A DNA stretch of 64,000 nucleotides from Alphaproteobacteria bacterium (GTDB lineage: Bacteria > Pseudomonadota > Alphaproteobacteria > Rhodospirillales > Magnetospirillaceae), in assembly GCA_021325215.1 (NCBI GenBank), contig JAJPHO010000026.1, positions 1 to 64,000 of the forward strand, read 5' to 3'. The stretch's first letter is position 1. Every line of letters begins with the position of its first letter. The notes below the pieces were generated by a model, which was not told where the DNA came from, searched no databases, and saw nothing but the letters and a program-made list of their open reading frames with translations. Made by a program: the position numbers and the translations under genes. Positions 7,822 through 57,088 of the stretch are shown here, in pieces.

Positions 7822-7849
7822 TCGCGTCAGGCCTGGAGTTCTCGCCCCG

Positions 7850-8449: not shown

Positions 8450-8535
8450 CCGGCGCGATCATAAAGCCTTGGGGTGTTCCGATCCCGCGATTATGGCAAA
8501 GTTCCATTGCGGACGGCTTGTTAGGCGGTTGTGTA

Positions 8536-9621: not shown

Positions 9622-10362
9622 ATGAAACATTACCGCCGCTTCTTGTGGATTTCTGTTTGCGGTCTTCTGATCTCGGGCGCGGCGCTGGGCCAGACAGCCA
9701 AACCGTTGACGTTCTATACTGAGGATCTGGCGCCCTACAACATGATCGAGAACGATCATGTGACGGGCATTTCAACGGAGATCCTCGCCATCGCCCTGAG
9801 CCGCATGCAGCTCGGCTTTACGCCGCGGCTGGTCTCGTGGAAGCGCGCTTATCACGAGGCACTTACCGATCCCCATAGCTGCGTCTATTCGACAGTCAGA
9901 TCATCCGACCGCGAACAGCTGTTCCGGTGGGTCGGGCCGGTCGCGCACGATTCTCTCGCCATCTTCGTTCTGCCCGACAGCCCGATCCAGGCCCATGCGC
10001 TGGCCGACCTCAAGGGCTACCGCACCGAACTGACCCAGGGCGACTATGCCGAAGCGCGGCTGATCGAGAACGGGATCAGGATCGTTCCGGCGCCGCCGGC
10101 CGAAAAGCAGATGGACATGCTGCTGGCCGGCCGCATCGATTTCTGGGTGGCGAACCGGGGGCAGGCGCAAAGCGAAGCCAGACGGTCGGGGGTTCAACTG
10201 AAGGAATTATTCGGCTACGAGGATTTCGATCTCTATCTGGCCTGCAATCCCGCCGTGCCGAGCGATCTGATCCGGCGCTTGGATGCCGCGGTCAAGCAGG
10301 TGTGGGACAGCGGCGAGGGGGCGCGCATCACGGCGAAATTCACCACGGGCCTCAAGGAATAG
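9622..10362 (+). CDS. Periplasmic amino-acid-type solute-binding protein (SBP family 3)
   Basis: A 246-residue protein with signal peptide MKHYRRFLWISVCGLLISGAALG (cut after ALG/Q, residues 1-23) and an SBP_bac_3 body: LTFYTEDLAPYNMIENDHVT at the start of the mature domain, GISTEILAIALSRM, then DPHSCVYSTVRSSDRE and the second lobe VANRGQAQSE. Such proteins bind polar amino acids or small acids in the periplasm. No transporter partner is adjacent, and the gene follows another binding-protein-like gene by 186 bases, in which I see nothing except the open extension described in the findings. It may be a stand-alone sensor. Confidence 0.75.
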   Translation: MKHYRRFLWISVCGLLISGAALGQTAKPLTFYTEDLAPYNMIENDHVTGISTEILAIALSRMQLGFTPRLVSWKRAYHEALTDPHSCVYSTVRSSDREQLFRWVGPVAHDSLAIFVLPDSPIQAHALADLKGYRTELTQGDYAEARLIENGIRIVPAPPAEKQMDMLLAGRIDFWVANRGQAQSEARRSGVQLKELFGYEDFDLYLACNPAVPSDLIRRLDAAVKQVWDSGEGARITAKFTTGLKE

Positions 10363-10460
10363 CGGGGGAAATGCGCAAGCTCATCCTCTGCCGACCGGCA
10401 AGGATGGCAAAGCCACGACCGAGGCGATCTTGAGGTATGAGATTTGCGGACACTGAAAAC

Positions 10461-10485
10461 GCCGGCATCGGGGGGCGATGCCGGC
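10461..10485 (-). terminator. Terminator of the peroxiredoxin/AhpD-like operon
   Basis: A perfect 10-bp stem GCCGGCATCG/CGATGCCGGC with a 5-base loop lies 12 bases after the stop of the minus-strand gene at 10498. On the minus strand it is followed by GTTTTC, a short U-run. It may also stop plus-strand transcription from 10362. Confidence 0.65.
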
Positions 10486-10497
10486 GTCTTGCCTTTC

Positions 10498-11076
10498 TTA
10501 CACCGAGGCCTTCAGCTTGCCCGGCGCGGTCCATTCGGACCCCTTCATGAAGGGATCGAGCGGGGTGTCGGCCAGATGGTCGGCGTAGTTCGAGATCAGC
10601 TTGGTGGCGGCCAGCACCAGCACGTCGAGGATGGCGCGGTTGTCATAGCCGGCCGCCTTGAAGGCGGCGACCGCGGCATCGCTCACCACGCCGCGGTTGC
10701 GGGTGACGGCGGCGGCGAAGATTCGCAGCGCCTCCAGTCTCGCATCGGAGACCGGACGTCCGTCGCGGATCGCGGCGATGTGGTCTTCCTCGACCTTGAC
10801 CATGCGCGACAGGTTGGAATGGCCGGCCATGCAATAGGTGCACTCGTTCTCATAGATGATCGAGAGATAGGCGATATTGCGTTCCACCGGGGTGAAGCCG
10901 GTCTTTTCGGCGATGCCCCACAGGGTGGCGTAGGCTTCCAGCGCGGCCGGGCTTTCGGCCAGCACCCGGTGCAGATTGGGAACGAAGCCCCAGGCTTTCT
11001 GGACGTTTTCGAGGATGTCGGCCGAGGCCGCCGGGGCGGTGGCGGTGTCGTGAAGAGTGAAAGCGTTGATGGTCAT
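10498..11076 (-). CDS. AhpD-like carboxymuconolactone decarboxylase family protein (alkylhydroperoxidase)
   Basis: A 192-residue all-helical protein with the AhpD redox motif ENECTYCMAGH (E76, E78, C79, C82, H86), in which two cysteines and a histidine reduce peroxides or serve as an adaptor for a peroxiredoxin. The start is ATG 11076, seven bases after an AAGGAGTAT site; the frame is open further upstream but overlaps the preceding gene. It is co-transcribed with the peroxiredoxin gene (13 bases apart), so the pair probably forms a two-component peroxide-reducing system. Confidence 0.88.
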   Translation of the reverse strand: MTINAFTLHDTATAPAASADILENVQKAWGFVPNLHRVLAESPAALEAYATLWGIAEKTGFTPVERNIAYLSIIYENECTYCMAGHSNLSRMVKVEEDHIAAIRDGRPVSDARLEALRIFAAAVTRNRGVVSDAAVAAFKAAGYDNRAILDVLVLAATKLISNYADHLADTPLDPFMKGSEWTAPGKLKASV

Positions 11077-11089
11077 GATGGATACTCCT

Positions 11090-11755
11090 TCAGCGGGCCA
11101 GGCGGTCGAGTGCCGGCAGCATGTCTTGCGGTTCGGGGCGGCGGGTATAGTCGGGGTTGACCTCGGCATAGACGATGGTGCCGTCCTGGCCGATCACGTA
11201 GCGGGCCGGCATGGGCAGGGTCCAGGCCGGGTCGTCATTGAAGGCCGGCAGGTCGTTCTTCAGCGATTTATAGAGCTCGACCAGATAGTCGGGCAGAGAG
11301 AATCTGAGGCCGAAGGCGGCGCCGACCTCGCCCTTCACGTCCGACAGGATCGGGAAGCTCAGCTCGTTCTGACGGACCGATTTGCGGCTGTTCGGGGCGG
11401 TCTGGGGCGAGATCGCCACCAGCTTGGCGCCGCGCTTGGCGAACTCCGGCAGCGCGGCCTGCAGCGCCTGCAGTTCCATGTTGCAGTACGGGCACCAGAC
11501 ACCGCGATAGAAGCTGACCACCAGCGGGCCCTGGGCCAGCAAAGCGGCAGAAGAGACGTCGTTGCCCTCCGGGTCCTTCAGGGTGAAGGCGGGAGCCTTG
11601 TCGCCGGCCTTCAGCGCCTTTTCGGCAAGGCCGGAGGCCTTGAGTTCGGCGGTGGCGCGGCGCATGACCGCAATGACCGGCGGGGGAACATTGTACGGAG
11701 GCTTGCCGGCTTCGAAATCGGCCTTGAAAGCGTCCAGTTTGGCTTGAAGCGTCAT
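11090..11755 (-). CDS. Peroxiredoxin-like protein (AhpC/TSA, thioredoxin fold)
   Basis: A 221-residue thioredoxin-fold protein. The mature redox motif is WCPYC with C88 and C91, unlike the lone peroxidatic cysteine of classical AhpC, so it belongs to the CxxC type of AhpC/TSA-like proteins. GDKAPAFTLKDPEGNDV (51-67) is the usual peroxiredoxin N-terminal region. The N-terminal 45 residues are a helical extension seen in this subfamily. An AAGGAGAG site precedes ATG 11755. It lies first in a two-gene operon with the AhpD-like gene, which points to organic hydroperoxide reduction. Confidence 0.88.
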   Translation of the reverse strand: MTLQAKLDAFKADFEAGKPPYNVPPPVIAVMRRATAELKASGLAEKALKAGDKAPAFTLKDPEGNDVSSAALLAQGPLVVSFYRGVWCPYCNMELQALQAALPEFAKRGAKLVAISPQTAPNSRKSVRQNELSFPILSDVKGEVGAAFGLRFSLPDYLVELYKSLKNDLPAFNDDPAWTLPMPARYVIGQDGTIVYAEVNPDYTRRPEPQDMLPALDRLAR

Positions 11756-11839
11756 CGTCGCTCTCCTTGAGCGGGGTTTCGATGACGAGAAGGTATCTAT
11801 GACCGCATGCGGCTAGTAGGCGGGTTGTTCGACTAGTAT

Positions 11840-12736
11840 TTATTCCCCGGGGGAATGGATGGCCATCAGCTGCTCGACGAAGTCGGTGAACAGCCGGGCC
11901 TTGGTGGTGACGGTGCGGCCGGTGGGGTAGACCGCCCAGAGATCGATGGGCGGCAGCGTCCAATCGGTCATCACCGCCTTGACCGAGCCATCGGCCAGTT
12001 CGGGGGCGAACATCCATCGCGAGCCGACCGCCATTCCCAGGCCCGACAGGACCGCGGCGCGGATACCTTCCGCCGCCGTCACGCGCAGGCGGCCGCGCAG
12101 GGCGATCGTGGTTTCCTCGGCACCCCGGCGCAGAGTCCAGCTGTCGCCGCCGCCCCGGCTGTTCACGATCATGCTGTGGGCGTCGAGGTCGGATGGCCGT
12201 TCCGGTTCGCCATGCCGGGCGAAGTAGGCCGGCGTCCCGACCATCAGCCGGGGAGCGCGTCCAATGCGCCGCGCGGTCAGGGACGAGTCGGGCAGGTCGC
12301 CCATCCGCAGGGCCATGTCGATCCCCTCCTGCACCAGATCGATGGTGCGGTCATCGAGAACGACCTCCATGTCGAGCCCCGGATGAGCGGCCATGAAGCC
12401 GTCCAGATGCGGAATGACATGCAGCCTGGCGAAGGTGACCGCGGCGCAGATGCGCAGCCGCCCGGTCAGACCCGCGCCGGCGCCGCGTGCGGCGAGCTCG
12501 GCCTCGTCGGCTTCCTCGATCACGCGTTTGGCCCGTTCGTAATAGGTCTGGCCCGCTTCGGTCGTGGCGAGGCCGCGTGTCGAGCGCGCCAGAAGCTTGA
12601 CGCCGAGGCTTTCCTCCAACTGCCCGATCGTCTTCGAGACGGCGGGCTGTCCAACCCCGAGATGCCGCGCGGCGGCGGAAAACGATCCGGTGTCGACGAC
12701 CCGGACGAAGGTCGCCATGGCCAGCAGGCGGTCCAT
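11840..12736 (-). CDS. LysR-family transcriptional regulator
   Basis: A 298-residue LysR regulator: winged helix-turn-helix at residues 1-60 (MATFVRVVDTGSFSAAARHL, QPAVSKTIGQLEESLG, LLARSTRGLATTEAG), then a two-lobed effector domain of the CrgA/PP2551-like kind. It lies 84 bases upstream of, and on the same strand as, the peroxiredoxin pair, and diverges from the COG4705 membrane protein 131 bases away, so either could be its target. The effector is unknown. Confidence 0.9.
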   Translation of the reverse strand: MDRLLAMATFVRVVDTGSFSAAARHLGVGQPAVSKTIGQLEESLGVKLLARSTRGLATTEAGQTYYERAKRVIEEADEAELAARGAGAGLTGRLRICAAVTFARLHVIPHLDGFMAAHPGLDMEVVLDDRTIDLVQEGIDMALRMGDLPDSSLTARRIGRAPRLMVGTPAYFARHGEPERPSDLDAHSMIVNSRGGGDSWTLRRGAEETTIALRGRLRVTAAEGIRAAVLSGLGMAVGSRWMFAPELADGSVKAVMTDWTLPPIDLWAVYPTGRTVTTKARLFTDFVEQLMAIHSPGE

Positions 12737-12867
12737 ATGGTCTCCCGAGGAATGAGGCCCTCGCGACGATCTATCCCATGGCTGAACGACCTAACTCAAA
12801 CTTTAATTGATCCAGCCGCCGTCTGGCCGGCTAATCGATCCGCAAAGGACCTCCAGGGAAGCGGATC

Positions 12868-13605
12868 ATGCAGAGCAAACATCTCCCGGCCATTACTCCC
12901 CGCTATTGGGCGGCCATTATTCTCGCCAGCATCTTCGGCACCAATATGGGCGATCTTTACGCCCACAATAGTGGCTTGGGCCTGTTGGGCGGGCTGCCGA
13001 TCCTGGCGGTGCTGTTCGTCGCGGCCTATGGGGCCGAGCGTTTCGACCGCCTGGCCCATGATGCTTATTACTGGCTCTGCATCATCATCCTGCGCACCGG
13101 CGCCACCAACATCGCCGATTACCTGGCCGGCAAACGCGGCCTGCATATCGACCGCCTGGTCCTGACCGCCGGCTTCGCCGTGCTGATCACGGCGCTGGCT
13201 TTCGTGGCGCTGAAGAAAGGCGAGCAGGCCAAGCAAGGCAAGGCGCTGCCCGAGACCGATCTGCTCTATTGGGCGACCATGCTGTCGGCCGGCATCTTCG
13301 GCACCATCCTGGGCGATTATTTCGAGCACACGATCGGCGAGGGCGTTGCGGCGATCGCCTTGTCGGTAGCGCTGCTGCCGGTGCTGGCGGTCTATTGGCG
13401 CGCCGCGGCGCCGTCGCTGTTCCTCTATTGGGGCACCATCTCGGCGGCGCGCACGACCGGTACCGCCATTGGCGACTGGTTGGCCGAGAACGATATTCTC
13501 ACGATCGGGCTGGCCGTCTGCACCGCTCTGACCGGTCTTGCCTTCGTCGCCGTGCTGGTGGCGTGGAAAGACCGCGGCCAGGCTCTGCCGGCCGCGGCGG
13601 AATGA
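12868..13605 (+). CDS. COG4705-like multi-helix membrane protein
   Basis: A 245-residue inner-membrane protein with about seven to eight hydrophobic helices and no soluble domain. A short motif recurs four times: FGTNMGDLYAH (29-39), RTGATNIADYLAG, FGTILGDYFEH and RTTGTAIGDWLAE. Each has a GT/AT..-hydrophobic-[GA]D core, suggesting internally duplicated helix pairs with conserved acidic residues in the membrane. The family is uncharacterised. ATG 12868 follows AGGGAAG. It is divergent from the LysR gene and ends 3 bases short of the convergent flgE stop. Confidence 0.75.
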   Translation: MQSKHLPAITPRYWAAIILASIFGTNMGDLYAHNSGLGLLGGLPILAVLFVAAYGAERFDRLAHDAYYWLCIIILRTGATNIADYLAGKRGLHIDRLVLTAGFAVLITALAFVALKKGEQAKQGKALPETDLLYWATMLSAGIFGTILGDYFEHTIGEGVAAIALSVALLPVLAVYWRAAAPSLFLYWGTISAARTTGTAIGDWLAENDILTIGLAVCTALTGLAFVAVLVAWKDRGQALPAAAE

Positions 13606-13608
13606 GGA

Positions 13609-15270
13609 TTACGACACCGACTGCATCAGGGTGGTGAAGTCCTGCTTGTCGGTGCTGATCGCCTGAGAGGACGCCGAATAGGCTTGCTGGGCGCTGATCA
13701 TGTTGCTGAATTCGGTCGTGGTGTCGGTGGTCGAGGCTTCCAGCGAGTCGCCCTTGATGTCGCCGGCGCCGTTGGTGCCGGCCGCATTCAGCGTGGCGGT
13801 TCCCGACGCCTGCGAGGTGGCATAGATCTGGCTCGACATGGCGGTCAGCCCGTTCTCATTGGCGAAGGTGGCGACCGGAATCTTGTAGATCGGGCGGCTG
13901 GTATCGTTGGTGTAGGTGGCGATCAGCTCGCCGCTGTCGTTCATCGAGACGCCCTTTATGGTGCCGAAGGGTATGCCGTCCTGCGAGATGTTCTTGACGT
14001 CGACCGTGCTGTCGCCGCTGTTCAACTGAGTCAGGCCGCCGCCGCCGCTCGAGCCCGGGGTCCCCAGATTGAGGCTGATCGAGCTGTTCGCGGCCTGGTC
14101 GTTCCAGCTGGCGGTGATGGCGGGCTCGTTGGTGCCGGCCATCGGCGCGGTGCCGCCGGTCGAGGTCGGCAGGCCGGTGACGGACCCCAGGGAACCGTCC
14201 GAATTGAAGCTGACCTGATAGGAATAGGAACTGACCGCGGCGCCCGTCGAATCGAGCAGCGTGCCCGAACTCGCCCCGGAGGCGTTGGTCGGGCTGTTGA
14301 CGGTCATCAGCCACTGATTGTCGCCTTCGGGGGTCCAGGTGACCGGCAGGGTCTGCTGGGTGCCGAGCGAATCATAGACGCTCATCGAACTGGAAATCGC
14401 GGCGGACGAGCCCAGGGTCGACCAGCTGGACGGCGGCGCGATGCCGGACAGGGAATCGCTGGGCGTGATGGTCGGCAGCGACGGCGAGGCCGAGGTGGTC
14501 TGACCGGTCGCGGCATTGGTTACCGAGCTGATATTGCCCGAGCCGTCCACCACCACATCGTACACCAGGGGCTGGCCGGCGGTGCTGGTGGTGCCGTCAT
14601 CGTCGGTCAGCGTGGCGCTGGAATTGGAATCATTGATCGCCAGCTGATAGGTCGTGTTGCCCGACGAATCGGTGCTGACCTTGGAATAGCTGTAATTGAC
14701 GGTCTGCGTCGTGTTGGTGTCGAAGTTGGTATAGCTCTGCGAATAGATGGCGGATTGCTGCCCCTCGGGCAGATTGGCCGACAGCGAATAGCTGGTGGTG
14801 GCCGAGGCCGACGTGCCGAGATTGCCGACATTCACGGTCTGCAGGGTGGAACTGGTGGCTTTGCCGGTGGCGTCGGTCGGATAGCCCTGCAGGTAATAAT
14901 TGGTGCCGACCAGCTGCAGATTGCCCGAATTGTCGGGATTGAAGGCGCCGTCGCGGGTGTAATAGGTCGCGGTGCCGCCCGCGCCGTTGCTCACGGCGAA
15001 CATGCCATTGCCGTCGATCGCCAGGTCGGTCGATTCCGTCCCGCTGGAGATCGCGCCCTGGAATGTCACATTCTGGCGGGTCGATGCGGCGACGCCGCTG
15101 TAAACCGTCGTCGCGCTGCCGCCGGCCGCCCCTTCCACCAGATCGTTGAAATTGGTGGTGACGGCCTTGTAGCCGTTGGTCGAGCTATTGGCGAGATTGG
15201 TCGAGACATTGCTGATTGCCGAGCTTTGCGCCAGCAATCCCGAGACCGCCGAGGTCAATGTCGAGTCCAT
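13609..15270 (-). CDS. flgE: Flagellar hook protein FlgE
   Basis: A 553-residue axial flagellar protein. The N-terminus has the conserved rod/hook helix and motif (SGLLAQSSAISNVSTNLANS, NGYKAVTTNF), and the C-terminus ends with the matching helix (EFSNMISAQQAYSASSQAIS, TDKQDFTTLMQSVS); these two form the D0 domain. The long Ser/Thr/Gly-rich middle (about 80-500) is the variable surface-exposed hook region, and IDGNGMFAV is the usual D1 motif. It is exported by the flagellar type III system to form the universal joint. No other flagellar gene is in the window. A sigma-54 type promoter precedes it. Confidence 0.9.
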   Translation of the reverse strand: MDSTLTSAVSGLLAQSSAISNVSTNLANSSTNGYKAVTTNFNDLVEGAAGGSATTVYSGVAASTRQNVTFQGAISSGTESTDLAIDGNGMFAVSNGAGGTATYYTRDGAFNPDNSGNLQLVGTNYYLQGYPTDATGKATSSTLQTVNVGNLGTSASATTSYSLSANLPEGQQSAIYSQSYTNFDTNTTQTVNYSYSKVSTDSSGNTTYQLAINDSNSSATLTDDDGTTSTAGQPLVYDVVVDGSGNISSVTNAATGQTTSASPSLPTITPSDSLSGIAPPSSWSTLGSSAAISSSMSVYDSLGTQQTLPVTWTPEGDNQWLMTVNSPTNASGASSGTLLDSTGAAVSSYSYQVSFNSDGSLGSVTGLPTSTGGTAPMAGTNEPAITASWNDQAANSSISLNLGTPGSSGGGGLTQLNSGDSTVDVKNISQDGIPFGTIKGVSMNDSGELIATYTNDTSRPIYKIPVATFANENGLTAMSSQIYATSQASGTATLNAAGTNGAGDIKGDSLEASTTDTTTEFSNMISAQQAYSASSQAISTDKQDFTTLMQSVS

Positions 15271-46943: not shown

Positions 46944-47840
46944 TCAGGCTTCTTCCGGCCAGTACAGCCGCATCGGATTGTCGACCAGCAATTTGCGCTG
47001 AAGCTCGGCCGTCGGGGCGATCTTCGGCACGTAATCGACCAGCTTGCCGTCATCGGGCATATGCGAGGTCATGTTCGGATGCGGCCAGTCGGTGCCCCAC
47101 AGCACACGGTCGGGGAAGGTCTCGACCAGGGTGCGGGCGAAGGGTACGACGTCGTCATAGCCGTCCGGCCCGGTTTTCGACAGGCGCTCGGGGCAGCTGA
47201 CCTTCGACCAGAAATCCGGGTGTTCGCGCATCAGCCTGAGGAACAGGCCGAATTCCGGGCCGCCCACCGGCTTGGTCACGTCGGGGCGGCCCATATGATC
47301 GACCACCACGGTGCCGGGCAAGTCGGCGAAGAAGTCGTAGAGCTCGGGCAGTTCCTGGGCTTCGAAATAGATCACCGTATGCCAGCCCAGAGGGGCGATG
47401 CGGGCGGCGATCTCGCTGAGCGCGTCGCGCGGCAAAGCGTCGACCAGCCGCTTCACGAAGTTGAAGCGCGCGCCGCGCACGCCGGCGGCGTGCAGCGCCT
47501 GCAGTTCCTCGTCGGTGACCGAGCGCTTGACGGTCGCGACGCCGCGCGCCCGGCCGTTCGAATGGGCCAGCGCGTCGACCAAAGCGCGGTTGTCGGCGCC
47601 ATGGCAGGTCGCCTGGACGATGACATTGCGCGAGAAGCCGAGATGGTCGCGCAAGTCCCACAGCTTTTCCTTGGGCGCGTCGCACGGCGTGTATTTGCGT
47701 TCCGGCGCATAGGGAAACACGTCGCCGGGGCCGAACACATGGCAATGGGCGTCCACCGCGCCGGGCGGCAAGGCGAAGGCCGGCTTGGACGGCGCGGGGT
47801 GGAAACGCAGCCAGCCGGCATCCATCTGGAATTTGCTCAT
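46944..47840 (-). CDS. ligI: 2-pyrone-4,6-dicarboxylate hydrolase (LigI-like amidohydrolase)
   Basis: A 298-residue amidohydrolase-superfamily enzyme close to LigI, which opens the lactone of 2-pyrone-4,6-dicarboxylate (PDC) to 4-oxalomesaconate. VDAHCHVFGPGDVFPYAPER (29-48) holds the first His-x-His pair, CHGADNRALVDAL and FNFVKRL are substrate-site regions, VVDHMGRPD gives a later histidine and LWGTDWPHPNM the catalytic Asp. It is the last gene of the eight-gene operon that begins with the porin; it overlaps ligJ by four bases. Confidence 0.9.
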   Translation of the reverse strand: MSKFQMDAGWLRFHPAPSKPAFALPPGAVDAHCHVFGPGDVFPYAPERKYTPCDAPKEKLWDLRDHLGFSRNVIVQATCHGADNRALVDALAHSNGRARGVATVKRSVTDEELQALHAAGVRGARFNFVKRLVDALPRDALSEIAARIAPLGWHTVIYFEAQELPELYDFFADLPGTVVVDHMGRPDVTKPVGGPEFGLFLRLMREHPDFWSKVSCPERLSKTGPDGYDDVVPFARTLVETFPDRVLWGTDWPHPNMTSHMPDDGKLVDYVPKIAPTAELQRKLLVDNPMRLYWPEEA

Positions 47841-48862
47841 CGGCCCTGCGCCTTCAGCACCGTGTCGAGGCGCGGATAGACACGGCGGGCATTGCCTTCG
47901 AACACTTTGCGGCGGTTTTCCTCGGACAGGCCGAGATTGTCGAGATAGCGCTTGGTGTCGTCGAAATAATGGCCCGTCTCGGGGTCTATGCCGCGTACCG
48001 CGCCGACCATCTCGGAGCCGAACAGGATATTGTCGATGTCGATCACCTTGAACAGCAGGTCGATGCCCGGCTGGTGATAGACGCAGGTGTCGAAATAGAC
48101 GTTCTTCATCACATGGTCGCGCAGATGCGGCTTCTTCATCATGTCGGCCAGGCCGCGATAGCGTCCCCAGTGATAGGGCACGGCGCCGCCGCCATGCGGG
48201 ATGACGAAGCGCAAAGCGGGGAAGTCCTTGAACAGGTCGCCCTCGATGAACTGCATGAAGGCGGTGGTGTCGGCATTGATGTAATGGGCGCCGGTGGCGT
48301 GGAAATTATGGTTGCACGAGCCCGACACATGGATCATCGCCGGCACGTCCAGCTCGACCATCTTCTCGTAGAAGGGATACCAGGCCTTGTCGGTCAGCGG
48401 CGGCGCGGTCCAATGGCCGCCCGACGGGTCGGGATTGAGATTGCAGCCGACGAAGCCCAGCTCGGTGACGCAGCGTTCCAGTTCCTCGATCGAATTGGCG
48501 ATCGAGACGCCGGGCGATTGCGGCAGCTGGCAGACGCCGATGAAATTGTGCGGATAGAGGTCGACCACCCGCTTGATGGTGTCGTTGCAGACCCGCGTCC
48601 AGGCCTGCGAGATCGCCTCGGTGCCGACATGGTGCGCCATCGCCGAGGCGCGCGGCGAGAAGATCGTCATGTCCGCGCCGCGGTCCTTGAGCAGCTTCAA
48701 TTGGTTGCTCTCGATGCTTTCGCGGATCTCGTCGTCGCTGACCGAAAGACCGGCGGGCAGCGGCTTGGAGGCGTCTTTCAGATGGGCGGTCTGGGCATCG
48801 CGGAAGGCCTGCAGCCCGGCGGGCGCGGTGGTGTAATGTCCGTGGCAGTCGATGATCAGCAT
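47837..48862 (-). CDS. ligJ: 4-oxalomesaconate hydratase (LigJ-like)
   Basis: A 341-residue amidohydrolase-fold hydratase. The N-terminus MLIIDCHGHYTTAP has the metal-binding His-x-His (H7, H9), with FVIPHGGGAVPYHWGRYRG and ILFGSEMVGAVRGIDPETG as the LigJ-type active-site blocks. It adds water to 4-oxalomesaconate to give 4-carboxy-4-hydroxy-2-oxoadipate in the protocatechuate 4,5-cleavage and gallate pathways. It starts on the base where the DUF1932 dehydrogenase stop ends and overlaps ligI. Confidence 0.92.
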   Translation of the reverse strand: MLIIDCHGHYTTAPAGLQAFRDAQTAHLKDASKPLPAGLSVSDDEIRESIESNQLKLLKDRGADMTIFSPRASAMAHHVGTEAISQAWTRVCNDTIKRVVDLYPHNFIGVCQLPQSPGVSIANSIEELERCVTELGFVGCNLNPDPSGGHWTAPPLTDKAWYPFYEKMVELDVPAMIHVSGSCNHNFHATGAHYINADTTAFMQFIEGDLFKDFPALRFVIPHGGGAVPYHWGRYRGLADMMKKPHLRDHVMKNVYFDTCVYHQPGIDLLFKVIDIDNILFGSEMVGAVRGIDPETGHYFDDTKRYLDNLGLSEENRRKVFEGNARRVYPRLDTVLKAQGR

Positions 48863-49719
48863 TATCGGTCTTTCAGCAAACGATCCAGCATGTCGGTCAG
48901 GGTCTGGGCTTCCAGAGCCTGCTTATGCGCCGCCGCCCAATCCTGGCGTTCGGCGGTGGCGGAGGAGAGGAGCGGGGTCAGGCCGGCGTCGGAAACGGTG
49001 CGGGCCACTTCGCGCATTTCCTCGGCGCGGCGGGTGCCGTGTTCGAGAGCGCGCGAGATCATGTAGCGGGCCAGCTTGGGCCAGTCGCCGACCGGGAACA
49101 GGTCGGACAGCGAATCGAGCACGGTCTGCTCGACGCCGTAATGACGCGCCGCGATCATCGATTCGGTCAGCAGCGCCTCGATGCCCTTGACCATCACGCT
49201 GCGGCACATCTTGGCCGCCGAGGCCTTGCCGTAATCGGCCGAGAAGAACTTCATGCCGGTGAAGCCGATTTCCTCGGCCAGCGGCAGGAATTCCTCGGCA
49301 TGCGGGCCGCCCAGCAGCATCGGGGTGGCGATGCGCTTGGGCTCGACCGGCGCCATCACCGCCGCCTCGACATAGCGGCCGCCGGCGCCGTTGATGATGT
49401 CGGCGGATTGCTTCTTCATCTCCGGCGAGGCGGAATTCATGTCGAGGAAGAAGGCGCCTTTGCGCAGGCCTGCCGCGGCCGCCTTGGCGGCGCTCACATC
49501 CTGCGCCGCCGTCACCGCCGAAACCACCAGCTCGGCCCCGGCCACCGCCGCTTCGGCGCTCTTGCCCGCCATCACGCCGCGGCTGGACACGGCCCGGCTC
49601 GGCTTGCTGGCCGGGTCGGTGAACAGCACGTCCCAGGCGGTGAGGGGATGGGACGGCAGATCTTCGGCCAGCATCTGGCCGACTTCGCCGAAGCCGATCA
49701 GGCAGATCGTGCGGATCAT
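48862..49719 (-). CDS. NAD(P)-dependent oxidoreductase with DUF1932 (6-phosphogluconate dehydrogenase-like)
   Basis: A 285-residue dehydrogenase of the beta-hydroxyacid/6PGDH superfamily. The Rossmann motif is GFGEVG at 9-14, DMNSASPEMKKQSADIINGA and YVEAAVMAPVEPKRIATPML are in the first domain, and the conserved lysine region is AKMCRSVMVKGIEALLTES. The C-terminal helical part is DUF1932. It sits between ligU and ligJ with 1-4 base overlaps, so it should act on an intermediate of the pathway, but it is not related to the LigC dehydrogenase (Gfo/Idh/MocA fold). Its reaction here is unknown. Confidence 0.85.
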   Translation of the reverse strand: MIRTICLIGFGEVGQMLAEDLPSHPLTAWDVLFTDPASKPSRAVSSRGVMAGKSAEAAVAGAELVVSAVTAAQDVSAAKAAAAGLRKGAFFLDMNSASPEMKKQSADIINGAGGRYVEAAVMAPVEPKRIATPMLLGGPHAEEFLPLAEEIGFTGMKFFSADYGKASAAKMCRSVMVKGIEALLTESMIAARHYGVEQTVLDSLSDLFPVGDWPKLARYMISRALEHGTRRAEEMREVARTVSDAGLTPLLSSATAERQDWAAAHKQALEAQTLTDMLDRLLKDR

Positions 49720-50795
49720 GGGGTGCTCCTGACATAGACTTCGCCGCGCATCAGCTTGCGGGCGGTGCGCAGCAGGGCGGATTTCCGCACCTCGATGCCG
49801 GAAGCGCCTTGGGACACCTCCATGTCGACGGTGAAGAAGCCGGTCGGATGTTCGATCTCCAGACGCTGGGCGCCGTCCCGCGCCGCGATGCCGGCGACCT
49901 GCGCCGCGACGCTGCCCTCCAGCACGCAGGCGGTGGCGACCGAGACCGCGCCCAGCACGCCGATCGCCTCGTGGACGCGGTGCGGGATGAACGTGCGGGT
50001 GCCGACCACGCCGCCCTGTTTCGGCGGCGAGACCAGGGTCATCTTCGGCACCGTCTTCTTGGCGACGTCGCCGAGATTCATGCGCGGGCCGAGTTCCAAT
50101 CGAATTGCCTCGACGCGCTTCTTCAGCTCGGCGTCGGATTCCAGCTCTTCCGGCGTTTCGCGGCCGGTCTTGCCGAAATCGGCGGCGCGCAAAACAACCA
50201 CCGGCATCCCGTTATCGATGCAGGTGACCTGTACGCCCTGCACCTCGTCGACCACATTGCCGGTCGGCAGCAGCGCGCCGCAGCTCGACCCCGCCACGTC
50301 GAGGAAATCGATGGGAATGGCCGCCGCCGTGCCCGGCACGCCGTCGATGCGGGCGTCGCCCTCATACTCGACCGCGCCGCCGGGAGTCGGCACGAAGGCC
50401 TGCGCGATGGCGCCGGTATTGAGCATCAGGATGCGCACGGGGGTGACGCCGTCCTTGGCCGGCACCAACCCTTCCTCGATGGCGAAGGGGCCGACCCCGG
50501 CCAGCATGTTGCCGCAATTCTGGCTGTCGCTGACCTCGGCCTTGTCGACGGCGACCTGCAGGAACAGATATTCGACATCGGCGTCGGAGCGGGAGGAGGG
50601 GCCGACCACGGCGATCTTGCTGGTCAGCGGATGGGCGCCGCCCATGCCGTCGATCTGCCGCACATCCGGCGATCCCATCGCCGACAGCAGAACCGCGTCG
50701 CGCGCGGCGCCGTCTTCGGGAAGGTGGCGGGCCTGGAAGAACAGGCCTTTCGAGGTGCCGCCGCGCATCGCCGTACAGGGAATGGCTTTCAGCAT
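49716..50795 (-). CDS. ligU: 4-oxalomesaconate tautomerase/isomerase (PrpF family, GalD/LigU-like)
   Basis: A 359-residue PrpF-family protein with diaminopimelate-epimerase-like fold. AMRGGTSKGLFFQARHLPED at 9-28 and DGMGGAHPLTSKIAVVGPS are family signatures, with DSQNCGNMLAGVGPFAIEEG carrying the active-site Cys. LigU and GalD shift the double bond or tautomeric form of 4-oxalomesaconate before hydration by LigJ. The gene lies 6 bases after ligK and overlaps the dehydrogenase gene by four bases. GalD versus LigU specificity cannot be told from sequence alone. Confidence 0.9.
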   Translation of the reverse strand: MLKAIPCTAMRGGTSKGLFFQARHLPEDGAARDAVLLSAMGSPDVRQIDGMGGAHPLTSKIAVVGPSSRSDADVEYLFLQVAVDKAEVSDSQNCGNMLAGVGPFAIEEGLVPAKDGVTPVRILMLNTGAIAQAFVPTPGGAVEYEGDARIDGVPGTAAAIPIDFLDVAGSSCGALLPTGNVVDEVQGVQVTCIDNGMPVVVLRAADFGKTGRETPEELESDAELKKRVEAIRLELGPRMNLGDVAKKTVPKMTLVSPPKQGGVVGTRTFIPHRVHEAIGVLGAVSVATACVLEGSVAAQVAGIAARDGAQRLEIEHPTGFFTVDMEVSQGASGIEVRKSALLRTARKLMRGEVYVRSTP

Positions 50796-50801
50796 GGCGG
50801 G

Positions 50802-51491
50802 TTACTCTTCCGGTTGGCGCTCGACATATTTGAGGCCCTTGTCGGCCAGGCGCTGGCGCATGCCATAGATGTCGAGGCCCAGTTCTCCGGCTTCGAAGCG
50901 GGCGCGGTTCTTCGCCTCCTTCTCCTCGCGGGCTTTGGCCTTGTCCAGCACCTCGGCGACCGACCGGCGCTTGATCACCACCACGCCGTCATCGTCGGCG
51001 ACCACCATGTCGCCCGGACGGATGCGGGCGCCGGCGCAGACCACCGGCACATTGACGTTGCCGATCGTCTCCTTGACCGTACCCTGGGCGAACACCGCCT
51101 TGGACCAGACCGGGAACTTCATCTCGGTCAGGGTGGCGATGTCGCGCACGCCGGCTTCGATGATCAGGCCCTGGACGCCGCGCACCTTCAGCGAGGTCGC
51201 CAGCAGGTCGCCGAAATAGCCGTCTTCGCAGGGGCTGGTCGGCACCACCACCAGCACGTCGCCGGGCTGGCACTGCTCGACGGCGACATGGATCATCCAA
51301 TTGTCGCCGGGCGCCACTTCGCAGGTCACCGCCGGGCCGGCGATATGGGCCGGGCGGTAGATCGGGCGCATATAAGACGCCAGCAGGCCTGTGCGGCCCT
51401 GGGCTTCATGCAGGGTGGCGACGCCATAGGCGGCGCAGCTCTTGGCCAGCACCGGGTCGGGGCGCTCGATCTGGGTAACCACGATACTCAT
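50802..51491 (-). CDS. ligK: 4-carboxy-4-hydroxy-2-oxoadipate aldolase (LigK/GalC-like, RraA fold)
   Basis: A 229-residue RraA-fold aldolase. [20 protein letters not shown]-type motif (reading [20 protein letters not shown] in the middle), [18 protein letters not shown] and [14 protein letters not shown] are the LigK/ProA blocks holding the divalent metal and pyruvate. It cleaves 4-carboxy-4-hydroxy-2-oxoadipate to pyruvate and oxaloacetate, ending the pathway in central metabolism. It follows the chemoreceptor gene by 12 bases in the same operon. Confidence 0.92.
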
Positions 51492-51503
51492 TGACCATAC
51501 TCC

Positions 51504-53195
51504 TCACTGGGCCTTGATGCCGGCGAGCAGGCGGTCGACCGAATCGCGCAGCGCGACCGCCTGCTGGGCCAGTTTTTCCGATTGGGCGGCGACGCCGGCG
51601 GCGGCCTGGCCGGTATCCGCGGCGGTGCCGAGCACGTCGGCGACGTTCCGGCTGACCGCCAAAGTGCTGCCGGCCGCCCGCTGGGTGTTGTTGCTGATCT
51701 CGTTGGTGGCGGCGCCCTGTTCCTCGACCGCCGAGGCGATGGCCGACGCGATCTTGCTGATCTCGACGACGGTCTGGCCGATGCCGCGCAGGGCGCGGAC
51801 CGCCTCTTCGGTCTTGGCCTGCACCGTCGAGATCTGCTGGGCGATCTCGCCGGTGGCGCGGCCGGTCTGGGTGGCCAGATGCTTGACCTCGCCGGCCACC
51901 ACCGCGAAGCCCTTGCCGGCTTCGCCGGCGCGGGCCGCCTCGATGGTGGCGTTCAGCGCCAGCAGATTGGTCTGGCTGGCGATGTCGTCGATCAGCCCGA
52001 CGATGTCGCCGATCTTCCTGGCTTCGTCGTTCAGCGCGATGACGATCGCGTCGGTCTCCTCGGTGGCGACCACCGCCTGGCGCGAGATCTCGGCCGAATG
52101 ATGGATCTGGCGCGAAATTTCCGAGATCGAGGCGTGCAGCTGCTCGGTGGCGGCGGCGACGGTGCCGACGCTTTCCGAGGATTCGTCGCAGGCGGCGGCC
52201 ATGGCGGTCAGGCTGCGCGAGGTATGGTTGGCATTGCCGACCATGCCCTCCGCCGCCTGGTGCATCTTGCCCGACGCGTCGGAGATTTCGGCGACCGCGC
52301 CGCTGACCGAGCGGTCCAGCTCATCGGCCAGGCCATGCAGCATCTCCTTGCGTTCGCGCGCGGCCTTTTCCGCCTCCTCGCGCTGGCGTTCGGTCAACAG
52401 GGCGATTTGCGCGGCATTGTCCTTGAAGACCTGCACGGCTTCCTGCATGTCGCCGATCTGCCGGCCCTGGTCGCGCGGAACGTCGGTGCGCAGATCGCCG
52501 GCGGCGATGCGGCGCATCACCGCGGTCAGATCGGCGATCGGACGGGAAATCGTCCGCGAGATCGCCAGGCAGGCGAGGGTCATCACGATCACCGAGACCA
52601 GGCCGATCAGCCCCTGCTCGATCATCTCGTCCCGGGTCGCGCGCTGCACGTCGTCGAGATAGACGCCCGAGCAGATGGCCCAGCCCCAAGGCTTGAAGTC
52701 CTTGACGACGACATGCTTGACGATCGGTTCCTTGCCGCCCGGCTTGGGGAACAGATATTCGACGATGCCTTCGCCTTGTTCCTTGGCGACCTTGACGATC
52801 TCGAGGCTGAACAGCTTGCCGTTCGAATCCTTGTTGCCGGACCGGTTGGTGCCGACGCTGTCGGGCGTCGCCGGGTTGAGGACCATCACCACATTATGGT
52901 CGAGGGCGAAGAGATAGAGGTCCCCGCCATAGCGGATGGAGCTGAGGGCGTGCTTGGCCTTGGCCTGCGCCTCCTCCTGGGTCAGCTCGCCGCGATCGGC
53001 GCGGGCGGCATAGTCGGCGGCCACGGAATAGCCGGCCTCGACCGCCGTCTTCACCTGCCCCATGCGGGTCCAATAGATCTCGTCCGAGCGCTTGGCCAGG
53101 CGTTCGGCGGTGGTCAGCAGATTGACGGCTACCGCGATGAAAACGATCAGGATCAGGCGGAAGCCGATCGACGTGCTGCGTAAATTGAACGGCAT
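51504..53195 (-). CDS. Methyl-accepting chemotaxis protein with sCache_2 ligand domain
   Basis: A 563-residue chemoreceptor. Membrane helix 1 near 10-28; periplasmic sCache_2 domain about 35-190 (IRYGGDLYLFALDHNVVMVL, DSVGTNRSGNKDSNGKLFSL, FKPWGWAICSGVYLDDV); membrane helix 2 near 195-215; HAMP (SRPIADLTAVMRRIAAGDLR); and the signalling domain with the hairpin tip LDDIASQTNLLALNATIEAA-like (here LIDDIASQTNLLALNATIEA). sCache_2 domains often bind small carboxylates. It is embedded 4 bases after dctA and 12 before ligK, so it probably guides the cell toward the operon's substrate. Confidence 0.92.
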   Translation of the reverse strand: MPFNLRSTSIGFRLILIVFIAVAVNLLTTAERLAKRSDEIYWTRMGQVKTAVEAGYSVAADYAARADRGELTQEEAQAKAKHALSSIRYGGDLYLFALDHNVVMVLNPATPDSVGTNRSGNKDSNGKLFSLEIVKVAKEQGEGIVEYLFPKPGGKEPIVKHVVVKDFKPWGWAICSGVYLDDVQRATRDEMIEQGLIGLVSVIVMTLACLAISRTISRPIADLTAVMRRIAAGDLRTDVPRDQGRQIGDMQEAVQVFKDNAAQIALLTERQREEAEKAARERKEMLHGLADELDRSVSGAVAEISDASGKMHQAAEGMVGNANHTSRSLTAMAAACDESSESVGTVAAATEQLHASISEISRQIHHSAEISRQAVVATEETDAIVIALNDEARKIGDIVGLIDDIASQTNLLALNATIEAARAGEAGKGFAVVAGEVKHLATQTGRATGEIAQQISTVQAKTEEAVRALRGIGQTVVEISKIASAIASAVEEQGAATNEISNNTQRAAGSTLAVSRNVADVLGTAADTGQAAAGVAAQSEKLAQQAVALRDSVDRLLAGIKAQ

Positions 53196-53199
53196 GATT

Positions 53200-54510
53200 T
53201 CAGTCCGAGTCCCCCGTGGCGCCCTGGTCGAGCACCTGTTTCATGCGCTCGACGTCGAGCGCGCCCTCCCACTTGGCCATAACGATGGTGGCGACGGCAT
53301 TGCCGACCAGGTTGGTCGGGGTCAGGCCCTCGGACATCAGGCGGTGGATACCCAGCACCAGGGCGACGCTGGCGACCGGGATGGTGCCGGTGGTCGACAG
53401 GGTCGCGGCCAGCACCACGAAGGCGGCGCCGGAAATACCGGCGGCGCCCTTCGAGGTCAGCAGCAGCACCGCCATCAGGCCGAGCTGGTCCATCAGGCTG
53501 AGATGCGTGTTGGTGGCCTGGGCCAGGAACACAGCGGTGCTGGCCAGATAGAGGCAGGTTCCGTCCAGATTGAAGGAATAGCCGCTGGGCACCACCAGTC
53601 CGACCACGCCTTCCTCGCAGCCGAGCGCGGTCATCTTGGACATCAGGCTGGGCAGCACGGTTTCGGACGAGGTGGTGGCGAAGACGATCAGCAGTTCCTC
53701 GCGCAGATAGCGCATCAGCTTGTAGAGGCTGAACCCGGCGAGATGGGCGATCGGCCCCAGCACGACGATGACGAAGAAGATGCAGGTGACGTAGAACCCG
53801 CCCAGCAGCTTGCCGAGCGACACCAGCGAGCCGGCGCCGAACTTGCCGACGGTGAAGGCCATGGCGCCGAACGCGCCCAGCGGCGCCGCCCACATGATGA
53901 TGTTGACCAGGCCGAACAGCAGCAGCGAGATGGATTCGACGAGATTGAGCACCGGCGCGCCCGCCTTGCCCAGTTTGGTCAGGGCGAAGCCGCACAGCAC
54001 GGCGACGAACAGCACCTGCAGCACCGAGCCGTCGGTGAAGGCGCCCAGGAAGCTTTGCGGAATGACGTCGGTCAGGAAGGTGATCACGTCGGTATGGGCG
54101 CTTTTCGCCAGCACCCCCGAGATGGTCGAGGTGTCGATATTGGCGGCGTCGATATTCATGCCGGCGCCAGGCTGGATCAAATTCACCGCCACCAGGCCGA
54201 TGGCCAGGGCGATGGTGGTGACCACTTCGAAATAGAGGATGGTGCGGACGGCGACCCGTCCGACCTTGGCCATGTCCGAGATGCGCGCGATGCCATGGAC
54301 GATGGTGCAGAAGATCAGCGGCGCGATGACGACGCGGATAGCCTTGATGAAGGCGTCGCCGAGCGGCTGCAGGCGGGTGCCGAGATCCGGCATCACCTGG
54401 CCGAAGATGGCGCCGGCCGCGGTGGCGAGGAGCACCTGCACCCAAAGCTTCTTGTACCAGGGGGAACGCGAAGCCTTGCGGGACAGGGAAGGTGACATGG
54501 ACATATCCAA
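53200..54510 (-). CDS. DctA-type dicarboxylate:cation symporter
   Basis: A 436-residue DAACS-family transporter. WYKKLWVQVLLATAAGAIFG is the first helix, VIAPLIFCTIVHGIARISDM and FATTSSETVLPSLMSKM (the SSSxT-like hairpin) with GYSFNLDGTCLYLASTAVF are diagnostic for DctA. It imports C4 or related di/tricarboxylates with sodium or protons. TTG 54510 has GAGGAG six bases upstream; ATG 54504 is the alternative. In this operon it probably imports the dicarboxylate or pyrone dicarboxylate handled by the Lig enzymes, which is inference; the family usually carries succinate, fumarate and malate. Confidence 0.88.
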   Translation of the reverse strand: MDMSMSPSLSRKASRSPWYKKLWVQVLLATAAGAIFGQVMPDLGTRLQPLGDAFIKAIRVVIAPLIFCTIVHGIARISDMAKVGRVAVRTILYFEVVTTIALAIGLVAVNLIQPGAGMNIDAANIDTSTISGVLAKSAHTDVITFLTDVIPQSFLGAFTDGSVLQVLFVAVLCGFALTKLGKAGAPVLNLVESISLLLFGLVNIIMWAAPLGAFGAMAFTVGKFGAGSLVSLGKLLGGFYVTCIFFVIVVLGPIAHLAGFSLYKLMRYLREELLIVFATTSSETVLPSLMSKMTALGCEEGVVGLVVPSGYSFNLDGTCLYLASTAVFLAQATNTHLSLMDQLGLMAVLLLTSKGAAGISGAAFVVLAATLSTTGTIPVASVALVLGIHRLMSEGLTPTNLVGNAVATIVMAKWEGALDVERMKQVLDQGATGDSD

Positions 54511-54540
54511 TTGGTGCTCCTCGATGCGGCCGGCTGCCGG

Positions 54541-55914
54541 CTAGAAACTGTACCGGATGCCGGCGACCGGACTGACCGTGTTGTTGTGCAGATAACCGTT
54601 GGCGTAGCCGCCCAGCACCCAGGAATACATGGCGCCGGCATAGGCGGTCATCTTGCGCGACAGCGAATAATCGGCGCGGAACGACGCCGCGTTCAGCGAC
54701 CCGGCGCAGGCATTGGAGATGGCGGCGGAATTACAGCCGTCATCCTTGAAATAGCTGTTCTGGCGGAACTGGTAGAAGACGCCATTCAGGGTCAGGCGGC
54801 TGCCGATCTTGTAGCGTGCGCCGGTCCACCAGATGGTCAGCACCTTGTTGTTGGTGTAGGCGTTGTTGTTGACCGTGCCCAGCTGATAGCCGCCGATGGT
54901 CAGGGCGCCGACCGGCAGCGGCGTGCTCGGATTGGCGTAATAGATATGCTGCCACGCGGCGTAGAACGTCACCGGATCGAGGTCGTATTTGGCGACGGCG
55001 CTGTAGGTGGTGTTGTCGGACACGGTGCCGGCCAGCATGCCGGGATGGGCGGCGGCCAGGGCCGCGGTCGACAGCGAGGTCGCGGCGATGGCGCCGCGGT
55101 TCTTGTTATAGGTGAAATCGCTGGTAAAGCGGCCGTAATCGACGCCGGCGGCGACTTCCTCGACGCCGCGCGCGGTGCCGGCCGGGGTGTAGGGCTGGTA
55201 CAGCGCGCCGAAATGGAACGGGCCGATGCCGCTGACGCTGTATTTGACCGAGGCGTCGGGGCGGTAATCCTCGGTGTCGCCCATGCCCTGGAAGCTGTTG
55301 AGAATGCCGACCATGGCGGTGCCGGGCGCGTTGCCCATCGGATCGTAGGCGCGCCCGTCATCCATGGTGAAGGCGGGATTGCGGCCGAAGGTCAGCGTGC
55401 CGTAGGTGTCCGAGCTGATCCCGACATATTCGTCGGAATTGAAGAGCTGTCCGGCGCGGCCGTTGTCGCCGCCGGTGGTCTGCTGGTTCAGCGCGACGCC
55501 GTTATTGTGGGACAAGGCCTTCAGGCCGTCATACAGCTGACCGGTCAGGGGGCTGAAACCGCTCTCCGCCTTGAAGATCGCCTTCCAGCCGTCGCCGAGA
55601 TCCTCCGACCCCTTGAAGCCGAACAAAGTCGAGGAGGAGCCGTTCTGCCCCACGGTGAAGACCGATTTGTTGCTGTTTTTCATCACGACGGTTTCGGTGC
55701 CGGCCGGATAGGCGCCGGCGGGCGGGGTGCCGTGGGTCTGATAGGTCAGGTCGACGTCGATATTGCCGTAGAAGACGATGCTGCCGCCGCCGATCCCGTC
55801 TTTGCCATCATTGCCCGACTCATCGTCGGCCAGCGCTTGAGCGCCCGGCGCGGCCAGCATTGCCAAGAACAGATAAGGTAACTTCTTATAGATGAACTGC
55901 TTTCCAACCGACAT
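54541..55914 (-). CDS. Outer-membrane porin (Gram-negative porin family)
   Basis: A 457-residue 16-stranded porin. Signal peptide about 1-29 (KKLPYLFLAMLAAPGAQALA), then SIVFYGNIDVDLTYQTHG, STLFGFKGSEDLGDGWKAIF, and YVGISSDTYGTLTFGRNPAF, the loop-3 side PEFG-like region, and a C-terminal strand ending in YSF, the BAM signal. It lets small anionic solutes cross the outer membrane. It is the first gene of the operon, 30 bases before dctA, which points to a substrate-specific porin for the operon's acid. No terminator is seen between the two. Confidence 0.88.
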   Translation of the reverse strand: MSVGKQFIYKKLPYLFLAMLAAPGAQALADDESGNDGKDGIGGGSIVFYGNIDVDLTYQTHGTPPAGAYPAGTETVVMKNSNKSVFTVGQNGSSSTLFGFKGSEDLGDGWKAIFKAESGFSPLTGQLYDGLKALSHNNGVALNQQTTGGDNGRAGQLFNSDEYVGISSDTYGTLTFGRNPAFTMDDGRAYDPMGNAPGTAMVGILNSFQGMGDTEDYRPDASVKYSVSGIGPFHFGALYQPYTPAGTARGVEEVAAGVDYGRFTSDFTYNKNRGAIAATSLSTAALAAAHPGMLAGTVSDNTTYSAVAKYDLDPVTFYAAWQHIYYANPSTPLPVGALTIGGYQLGTVNNNAYTNNKVLTIWWTGARYKIGSRLTLNGVFYQFRQNSYFKDDGCNSAAISNACAGSLNAASFRADYSLSRKMTAYAGAMYSWVLGGYANGYLHNNTVSPVAGIRYSF

Positions 55915-56072: not shown

Positions 56073-56103
56073 TGCATTGATTCATGAATTCAATTCATGA
56101 TGC
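56073..56103. promoter_or_regulatory. Palindromic LysR-type binding region upstream of the porin operon
   Basis: Within the AT-rich 238-base gap (55915-56152) between the LysR and porin genes, TTCATGAATTC (56081-56091) and GAATTCAATTCATGA (56087-56101) overlap to make an imperfect palindrome flanked by TGCAT and ATGCA (56073-56105). It contains T-N11-A spacing typical of LysR boxes. No other feature is seen in the gap. Confidence 0.5.
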
Positions 56104-56152: not shown

Positions 56153-57088
56153 TCAGGCGGAGGGGATGACGCCGCTGTTGCGGAACTGCTCGGTCAGGTC
56201 GCGGATGATCAGGTCGAGCAGGGCCTGGCCCGCGCTCGATAGCGGGAAATCCCGCTTCCTGATGATGCCGAGCGGCCGCGTCACGATCGGATTGACCAGC
56301 GGCAGATAGGTCATGCCGGGCGGCACCCGGCCATTGCCGAGCACCAGGCGCGGCACCACCGCCAGGCCGAGGCCCTGGGCGGCGAAGGCGATGGCTGAAT
56401 TCATCGACAGCACTTCATGGTGCCAGCGCAGCGATTCGCGCCGGCTGCCCAGGCTGGTGTCGAGCAGCGAGCGCACCCCCGATCCGACGCCCATGCGGAT
56501 CAGCTTCTCGCCCTCGAGGTCGGCCCACGATACCGATTTCCCGCCGGCCAGCCGGTGATCGGCCGGACACAGCAGGACGAAGGGGTCCCTGGCCAGGATG
56601 ACCGGCTCGGTATCCCAGGTGGTGGTCGACGTCAGGGCGATGCCGAAGATGGCGTCGCCGCGGCTGACGCTCTGGGTGATCTCGGCGGCGCTGCGGTCCA
56701 GCACGGCGACCTGGATGTCGGGATAAAGCTTGGCGAAGCGTGCCAGGGAACCAGGCAGATAGGTCTCGGCCAGGGTCGGCATGCAGCCGATCGACAGGCG
56801 TTCCTGGTTGCGCCTGCCGGCCTCGCGCAGGGTGTCGAGGGATTGGCTCAGCTCGTCCATCATGCGCCGGGCCTTGGGCAGCAATTCCATGCCCGCCTCG
56901 GTCAGGCTGACGCGCCGCGTGGTCCGCACCAGCAATTGCAGGCCGAGCCCTTCCTCCAGCTTGCGCATGCGGTGGGTCAGGGCCGTCTGCGACAGATTCA
57001 GCCGCAGCGCCGCCTGCTGGAAGCTTCCCGTTTCGGCGATGTAGAGGAAGGCCTCGAGGCCCAGGAAATCGATGCGCATTCGCGGCAC
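56153..57088 (-). CDS. LysR-family regulator, probable activator of the porin-lig operon
   Basis: A 311-residue LysR regulator: helix-turn-helix residues 5-63 (FLYIAETGSFQQAALRLNLS, QTALTHRMRKLEEGLG, RRVSLTEAGMELLPKARR) and an effector domain in two lobes (IFGIALTSTTTWDTEPVILA, RDPFVLLCPADHRLAGGKSV). It lies 238 bases upstream of the porin gene on the same strand, with a palindromic region between, so it most likely controls the porin-dctA-mcp-lig operon in response to a pathway acid; the effector is unknown. Confidence 0.88.
   Translation of the reverse strand: MPRMRIDFLGLEAFLYIAETGSFQQAALRLNLSQTALTHRMRKLEEGLGLQLLVRTTRRVSLTEAGMELLPKARRMMDELSQSLDTLREAGRRNQERLSIGCMPTLAETYLPGSLARFAKLYPDIQVAVLDRSAAEITQSVSRGDAIFGIALTSTTTWDTEPVILARDPFVLLCPADHRLAGGKSVSWADLEGEKLIRMGVGSGVRSLLDTSLGSRRESLRWHHEVLSMNSAIAFAAQGLGLAVVPRLVLGNGRVPPGMTYLPLVNPIVTRPLGIIRKRDFPLSSAGQALLDLIIRDLTEQFRNSGVIPSA

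Follow-up and report, generated by a model that had tools for sequence, protein, structure and literature searches.

What purpose could the lower half of a ring-cleavage pathway serve in a genome without the genes that open the ring? The question is posed by an operon in a 64,000-nucleotide stretch from an alphaproteobacterium of the Magnetospirillaceae (assembly GCA_021325215.1, contig JAJPHO010000026.1, positions 1 to 64,000; hereafter the window), in which eight minus-strand genes, read from 55914 to 46944, encode a porin, a DctA-like symporter, a chemoreceptor, LigK, LigU, a DUF1932 dehydrogenase, LigJ, and LigI. Judged from the sequence, the operon is probably a self-contained system for the acquisition and catabolism of 2-pyrone-4,6-dicarboxylate (PDC).

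Operon content and the missing ring-cleavage genes

The coordinates, strand, and order of the eight genes, which an earlier note had described as a same-strand operon, were confirmed, with spacings of −4 to +30 bases (from the 5′ end: porin/DctA +30, DctA/chemoreceptor +4, chemoreceptor/LigK +12, LigK/LigU +6, LigU/dehydrogenase −4, dehydrogenase/LigJ −1, and LigJ/LigI −4), and the identities proposed for them were upheld by NCBIfam, Pfam, and PDB matches. Operon GC content (0.63–0.68) resembles that of most of the window. The three upstream genes encode an outer-membrane porin (54541..55914; Porin_4, PF13609, 74 bits), a DctA-like symporter of the SDF family (53200..54510), and a chemoreceptor with an sCache_2 ligand domain, HAMP, and MCPsignal (51504..53195; Pfam domains). 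LigK (4-carboxy-4-hydroxy-2-oxoadipate aldolase, 50802..51491) scored 349 bits against TIGR02798 (cut-off 304.5), exceeded the cut-off of NF006731, and matched PDB 3noj at 287 bits, while LigU (4-oxalomesaconate tautomerase, 49716..50795) scored 541 bits against NF033377 (cut-off 440) and 436 bits against PDB 6p3j. LigJ (47837..48862) matched the 4-oxalomesaconate hydratase PDB 6dwv at 554 bits and 2gwg at 534 bits, and LigI (46944..47840) matched the PDC hydrolase PDB 4d8l at 357 bits over residues 10–297, nearly its full length. In the alignment LigI keeps the Asp, presumably the catalytic one, that the 4dia and 4di8 chains carry in altered form, and it retains the HCH motif, the Asp of GTDWPHPNM, and the aligned Arg residues, which we take to belong to the active site.

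All four enzymes are clear orthologues, so the lower pathway from PDC to pyruvate and oxaloacetate is complete; the same four make up the lower part of the protocatechuate 4,5-cleavage pathway (the pmd genes of Comamonas). From orthology, LigI would open PDC to 4-oxalomesaconate, LigU would isomerise this compound, LigJ would hydrate the LigU product to 4-carboxy-4-hydroxy-2-oxoadipate, and LigK would split the latter into pyruvate and oxaloacetate. The dehydrogenase (48862..49719), dependent on nicotinamide adenine dinucleotide (NAD_binding_2 and DUF1932), was considered as a novel part and ruled out as such, since ordinary lig clusters with LigABC conserve it too (cluster c9, 28 open reading frames including that of the window); we know of no pathway step assigned to it.

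The reported absence of LigAB and LigC held for the whole genome, a 4.88 Mb draft of 195 contigs (listed as 100% complete with 1.66% contamination; the window is contig 62), in which no LigA, true LigB, or LigC orthologue was found. The genome-wide search for LigA returned 0 matches. The single LigB-family protein, encoded on another contig, fits best with the name 4,5-DOPA dioxygenase, at 143 bits and so short of the cut-off of 233, and had no match to the protocatechuate or gallate dioxygenase models, which the Elstera LigB used as a yardstick does match. The best genome-wide match to LigC reached 30% identity over about 140 amino acids, compared to 67–90% identity in five other genomes having LigC, though one genome (G073) has LigA, yet no LigC by the same search. 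No second LigI was found in the genome at E ≤ 1e-60. The bacterium thus seems incapable of opening aromatic rings along this pathway. LigI without LigA is unusual, as LigA is present in 31 of the 34 genomes with LigI that were tested out of a phylum sample (16 of 50 LigI matches were excluded, namely the genome itself and 15 matches of 42–52% identity; one other match of 52% was kept).

LigI clusters in other genomes

The best 80 of 571 confirmed LigI-anchored loci, all 80 of them named, were surveyed. In 71 of these, one or more of the genes for LigA, LigB, and LigC lies within the stretch examined, and many follow the order K-U-DH-J-I-A-B-C (DH, dehydrogenase) or a close variant. Because ordinary LigI clusters mostly carry LigA, LigB, or LigC, the window can be described as keeping the ordinary K-U-DH-J-I block, an order common to the window and the Elstera and Steroidobacter clusters, without its ring-opening end. 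Compared to protocatechuate 4,5-cleavage operons, it lacks the ring-opening dioxygenase and a LigC orthologue and has a porin, a symporter, and a chemoreceptor upstream instead.

Nine of the 80 loci lack LigA, LigB, and LigC, and six of these nine carry DctA (five from Xanthomonadaceae and one from Rhizobium leguminosarum Tri-43), while DctA was seen in none of the 71 loci having LigA, LigB, or LigC. Among the 57 loci whose flanks extend 5 kb or more in each direction, five had DctA only, 51 had LigABC genes only, one had neither, and none had both, although four of the five DctA-only loci are from Xanthomonadaceae, so that the Fisher value computed for these counts does not give a probability for independent events. 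DctA and LigABC replace each other in clusters with LigI. The Xanthomonadaceae layout comprises a divergent LysR gene and LigK-LigU-DctA-OprB porin-LigJ-LigI, and that of R. leguminosarum Tri-43, a strain with no LigA, LigB, or LigC orthologue, comprises DctA, LysR, LigJ, LigI, and TctC.

Within a sample of 119 Xanthomonadaceae genomes, LigI occurred in 11. Eight of these have the DctA-OprB cluster together with weak LigB-family matches (107–121 bits), two have LigABC (LigB scores, 263 and 275 bits) in a cluster without DctA, and the last has a contig too short to judge. The weak matches of three of the eight, and that of a Luteimonas genome outside the sample, are best named 4,5-DOPA dioxygenase (194–206 bits, cut-off 233); for the other five the call is based on score alone. 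One of the eight, Xanthomonas arboricola (L143, G067:C3), has broken pieces of LigA and LigB at about 6260–7240, away from the DctA-lig cluster, and these appear to be a decayed ring-opening gene pair.

It is very improbable that the operon of the window is a remnant, the lower half of an ordinary pathway, in a strain that has or recently had ligABC. The K-U-DH-J-I order is shared with ordinary clusters, for instance that of Elstera, where LigB and LigC follow, X. arboricola retains its broken genes elsewhere, and a contig may have been lost from a draft of 195. However, the window yielded nothing convincing for LigA, LigB, or LigC (best E, 0.29), all eight reading frames of the operon are complete, and the same gene lack recurs with the same clade of transporter.

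Three further LigI loci occur in genomes without LigA. At L137 (G384:C1:1316001-1336000, about 6576–11474), LigI (66% identity) stands beside a tripartite ATP-independent periplasmic (TRAP) transporter, with an NMT1-like binding protein and DctM, and a divergent LysR-like gene, which is possibly another PDC uptake system of a different transporter class. At L138 (G334:C19, about 7685–10432), a lone LigI (65%) adjoins genes that by their look we take to be the pectin-degradation genes kduI and kduD. A LigI-like gene (53%) at L139 (G279:C27, about 4850–11400) lies between genes for TctC binding proteins, with LigJ and LigK near.

A DctA subfamily without the TM8 arginine

The operon DctA is 54% identical to the DctA of Escherichia coli, a member of the same SDF family, and misses the NF009587 model (516 bits, cut-off 570), which E. 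coli DctA passes with 622 bits. In a first tree, the DctAs of the window, G034, G033 (not labelled as lig-linked beforehand), the five Xanthomonadaceae, and R. leguminosarum grouped as a single clade (support 99/94) that excluded the DctA of E. coli and the second DctAs carried by the Xanthomonadaceae and Rhizobium. A wider tree split 15 sequences from 26 along a branch with support 100/99; 12 of the 15 had been labelled as lig-linked in advance and the other three proved to be adjacent to lig genes as well. Nine alignment columns separated the groups in the first comparison, six of them in the C-terminal part, though the columns were chosen after the tree had been seen. Amongst 70 distinct family sequences, 13 have L-[AS]-A-S-H-[LF] at window positions 320, 360, 363, 381, 389, and 396 (in the window L320, S360, A363, S381, H389, and L396), where E. 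coli DctA has ITGGDR. Position 396 is an Arg of transmembrane helix 8 (TM8) in all 57 sequences outside the clade (49 DctAs at ≥45% identity and eight more distant proteins) and is not Arg in any of the 13 members, with Leu in the operon DctA; 38 of the 57 Arg-bearing sequences read ITGGDR and the others vary at the remaining positions. Positions 396 and 389 align with an Arg and an Asp, respectively, of solved aspartate transporters, and we assume this Arg to be the one that binds the substrate carboxylate.

A second DctA in the genome, cut by a contig end, shares 79–82% identity with eight DctAs of the ordinary type from its family and 62% with that of E. coli, but 51% with the operon DctA. 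Given the distinct clade and residues and this second, ordinary-type DctA, the operon DctA does not appear to be the housekeeping carrier of C4 acids. That the symporter and receptor serve succinate, malate, and similar acids, their place in one operon with the lower pathway being incidental, is therefore a reading to which we give little credence. NCBIfam does name the protein C4-dicarboxylate transporter DctA (NF002461, 575 bits, cut-off 513), and the best NCBIfam match of the receptor, though weak (166 bits, far below the cut-off of 900), is CtpM, presumably a malate receptor. By both the tree and the core residues, the operon DctA is not of the ordinary C4-acid type; besides the missing TM8 Arg, the linkage of DctA to lig genes recurs with another porin family and another gene order. 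If this interpretation is correct, database names would need correcting, as the NCBIfam DctA model claims Arg-less proteins.

The enzymes do not share the grouping of the transporters. In a LigI+LigJ tree, the window was placed beside Elstera (support 83, unstarred), which has LigB and LigC, and apart from a group of Xanthomonadaceae and Rhizobium (98, starred) that also holds Sphingomonas L082, from a genome with LigA, LigB, and LigC. A single origin of the seven LigABC-less DctA loci was rejected, as one clade was not compatible with this tree (p-AU = 4.5e-41; a quick tree, with groups named after a tree had been seen and four long or odd rows, L050, L139, L147, and L156, left out). Because the DctAs group and the enzymes do not, these trees suggest that the same transporter may have been joined to lower-pathway genes more than once.

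Searches anchored on DctA rather than on LigI covered 61 relatives and 317 genomes of the same order, and found three further Arg-less members (G034:C260, G033:C208, and G033:C319), each with a lig-type gene nearby (LigB, LigJ-like, and LigK, respectively). Since all three have such neighbours, the Arg-less subfamily is tied to the lower-pathway node. The DctA at G034:C260 is the closest relative of that in the window (74% identical) and sits beside a LysR gene (56% identical to that of the window), a DUF1932 gene, and LigB, while the LigI of G034 is on another contig together with LigABC. The locus at G033:C208 (L188, 6423–17729), from the same family, resembles the operon of the window and holds an OprB porin, the Arg-less DctA, an amidohydrolase, a methyl-accepting chemotaxis protein gene, a LigJ-like protein (61%), an HpcH/HpaI aldolase, and a thiamine pyrophosphate enzyme; that at G033:C319 (L192, about 6660–14207) holds LigK (58%), an OprB porin, the Arg-less DctA, an amidohydrolase, and a divergent LigR-like regulator.

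The prediction that Arg-bearing DctAs would not be lig-linked and Arg-less ones would be was noted before the loci were examined, and on new loci it was checked for the Arg-bearing half only. Twelve new Arg-bearing DctA loci of at least 6 kb had no match to LigI, LigJ, LigU, LigK, LigA, LigB, or LigC, other amidohydrolases not having been sought (a 13th locus, L234, of 5.3 kb, was left out of the map); two of them (G720 and G721) have a nearby LysR gene 36–38% identical to that of the window. No new Arg-less member occurred among 21 matches at E ≤ 1e-128 in the 317 genomes of the order. Three of the 21, at about 55% identity, carry the Arg, and identity alone therefore does not define the clade.

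Predicted substrate, significance, and regulation

The claim that PDC or a related acid is sensed, imported, and degraded gains support from the missing LigABC, the type of DctA, and the recurrence in Xanthomonadaceae and Rhizobium. In the proposed mechanism, PDC made and released by lignin-degrading neighbours would cross the outer membrane via the porin and be carried into the cell by the specialised DctA-like symporter; the sCache_2 receptor would sense it for chemotaxis, and a LysR regulator encoded upstream, responding to PDC, would induce the operon. What the sequences show is the gene content, the lack of ring-cleavage genes in this draft genome, the recurrence, and the DctA clade with its signature; PDC as the substrate, and its import, sensing, and role in induction, are inferred. 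It is about an even call whether the acquisition is dedicated to PDC in the fuller sense that a DctA subfamily lost its carboxylate-binding Arg, switched substrate, and took the place of the ring-opening genes ahead of lower-pathway clusters from different LigI/LigJ lineages, making its owners scavengers of the ring-cleavage products that other bacteria release.

It is rather unlikely, though clearly less so than transport of ordinary C4 acids, that the imported food is instead 4-oxalomesaconate, 4-carboxy-4-hydroxy-2-oxoadipate, or a related lactone, degraded by the same enzymes. LigU, LigJ, and LigK alone would handle the open-chain acids, and the two G033 members of the clade sit with other amidohydrolases and a LigJ-like protein or LigK, with no LigI. 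LigI itself also scores 232 bits against a sulfomuconolactone hydrolase model, but this is far below the cut-off of 500 and compares to 357 bits, near full length, for PDC hydrolase. Because the operon includes LigI, an enzyme that would be superfluous with open-chain acids, PDC is a better guess than an open-chain tricarboxylate, and it is the predicted substrate where LigI sits in the operon, as in the window.

Several observations weigh against PDC as the substrate. That LigI and DctA adjoin each other in Xanthomonadaceae and Rhizobium does not count as independent support, because those loci were found through LigI, and no LigI was found beside the three members obtained through DctA (for G033:C319, none in 20 kb). 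The closest relative, at G034:C260, lies at the end of a contig, next to a gene for a ring-opening dioxygenase. The subfamily may thus carry other acids feeding the same node, and its members are not limited to strains that lack ring cleavage. No natural extracellular level of PDC was found in the literature, and wild-type Pseudomonas NGC7 accumulates none, according to the available part of one report (PMC12314914). In favour of PDC, the same excerpt describes the inability of NGC7 to convert PDC and an mgaC mutant that makes PDC almost quantitatively; it also describes how PDC forms when the cleavage product of 3-O-methylgallate closes spontaneously, and the use of PDC, made from lignin by engineered bacteria, as a polymer building block (PMC12314914). 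High-yield release of PDC by a Novosphingobium strain that produces it points the same way, as far as the accessible portion of the source extends (PMC8091115). For the Comamonas operon, PDC is reported to induce more strongly than protocatechuate does (PMC10510227).

What looks new is the transporter subfamily, together with the apparent decoupling from ring cleavage; the enzymes themselves are known. Neither a PDC importer nor a DctA joined to the lower pathway was described among the matches listed from the open-access literature, and the word "transporter" is absent from the main text of PMC12710314. A likeness is offered by ybhHI of E. coli, where a LigU homologue beside a putative tricarboxylate transporter gene likewise pairs an enzyme with a carboxylate transporter; this system differs in that the part of the source available names no LigI, LigJ, or LigK, its transporter is homologous to the 2-oxoglutarate/malate translocator, and it is tied to L-malate (PMC9068703). 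If import of PDC is correct, the Arg-less proteins would be importers of one subfamily, marked by a short signature of residues, which is directly testable, PDC or a near relative would be a shared food in lignin-degrading communities, and PDC production strains could be affected by adding or removing such a transporter.

The LysR-family gene, which the earlier note did not include, lies on the same strand as the operon (56153..57088; Pfam HTH_1 and LysR_substrate), 238 bases upstream of the porin gene. The gap between the two contains a perfect palindrome, ATGAATTCAATTCAT (56084..56098), also picked up as an inverted repeat, which is a candidate operator as it fits the T-N11-A rule followed by LysR-type boxes. 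Its pattern, chosen after the palindrome had been seen, had this sole match in the 64 kb at ≤1 mismatch (0.01 expected). As a conserved operator the palindrome was rejected, since G034 gives merely a 3-mismatch match in the LysR-DUF1932 gap (0.09 expected in the locus); the half-site pattern had no match in Elstera, and the palindrome stays a candidate. A promoter scan found none (1.4 expected). In G017, G232, and G216, too, one 20 kb stretch holds both lig genes and a chemoreceptor gene (28–36% identity), and a chemoreceptor near lig genes is not unique to the window. Elsewhere in the genome, on contig 58 (L002, 13361–16816), a ribonucleotide-reductase-like open reading frame of 1151 amino acids contains, by eye, an apparent intein.

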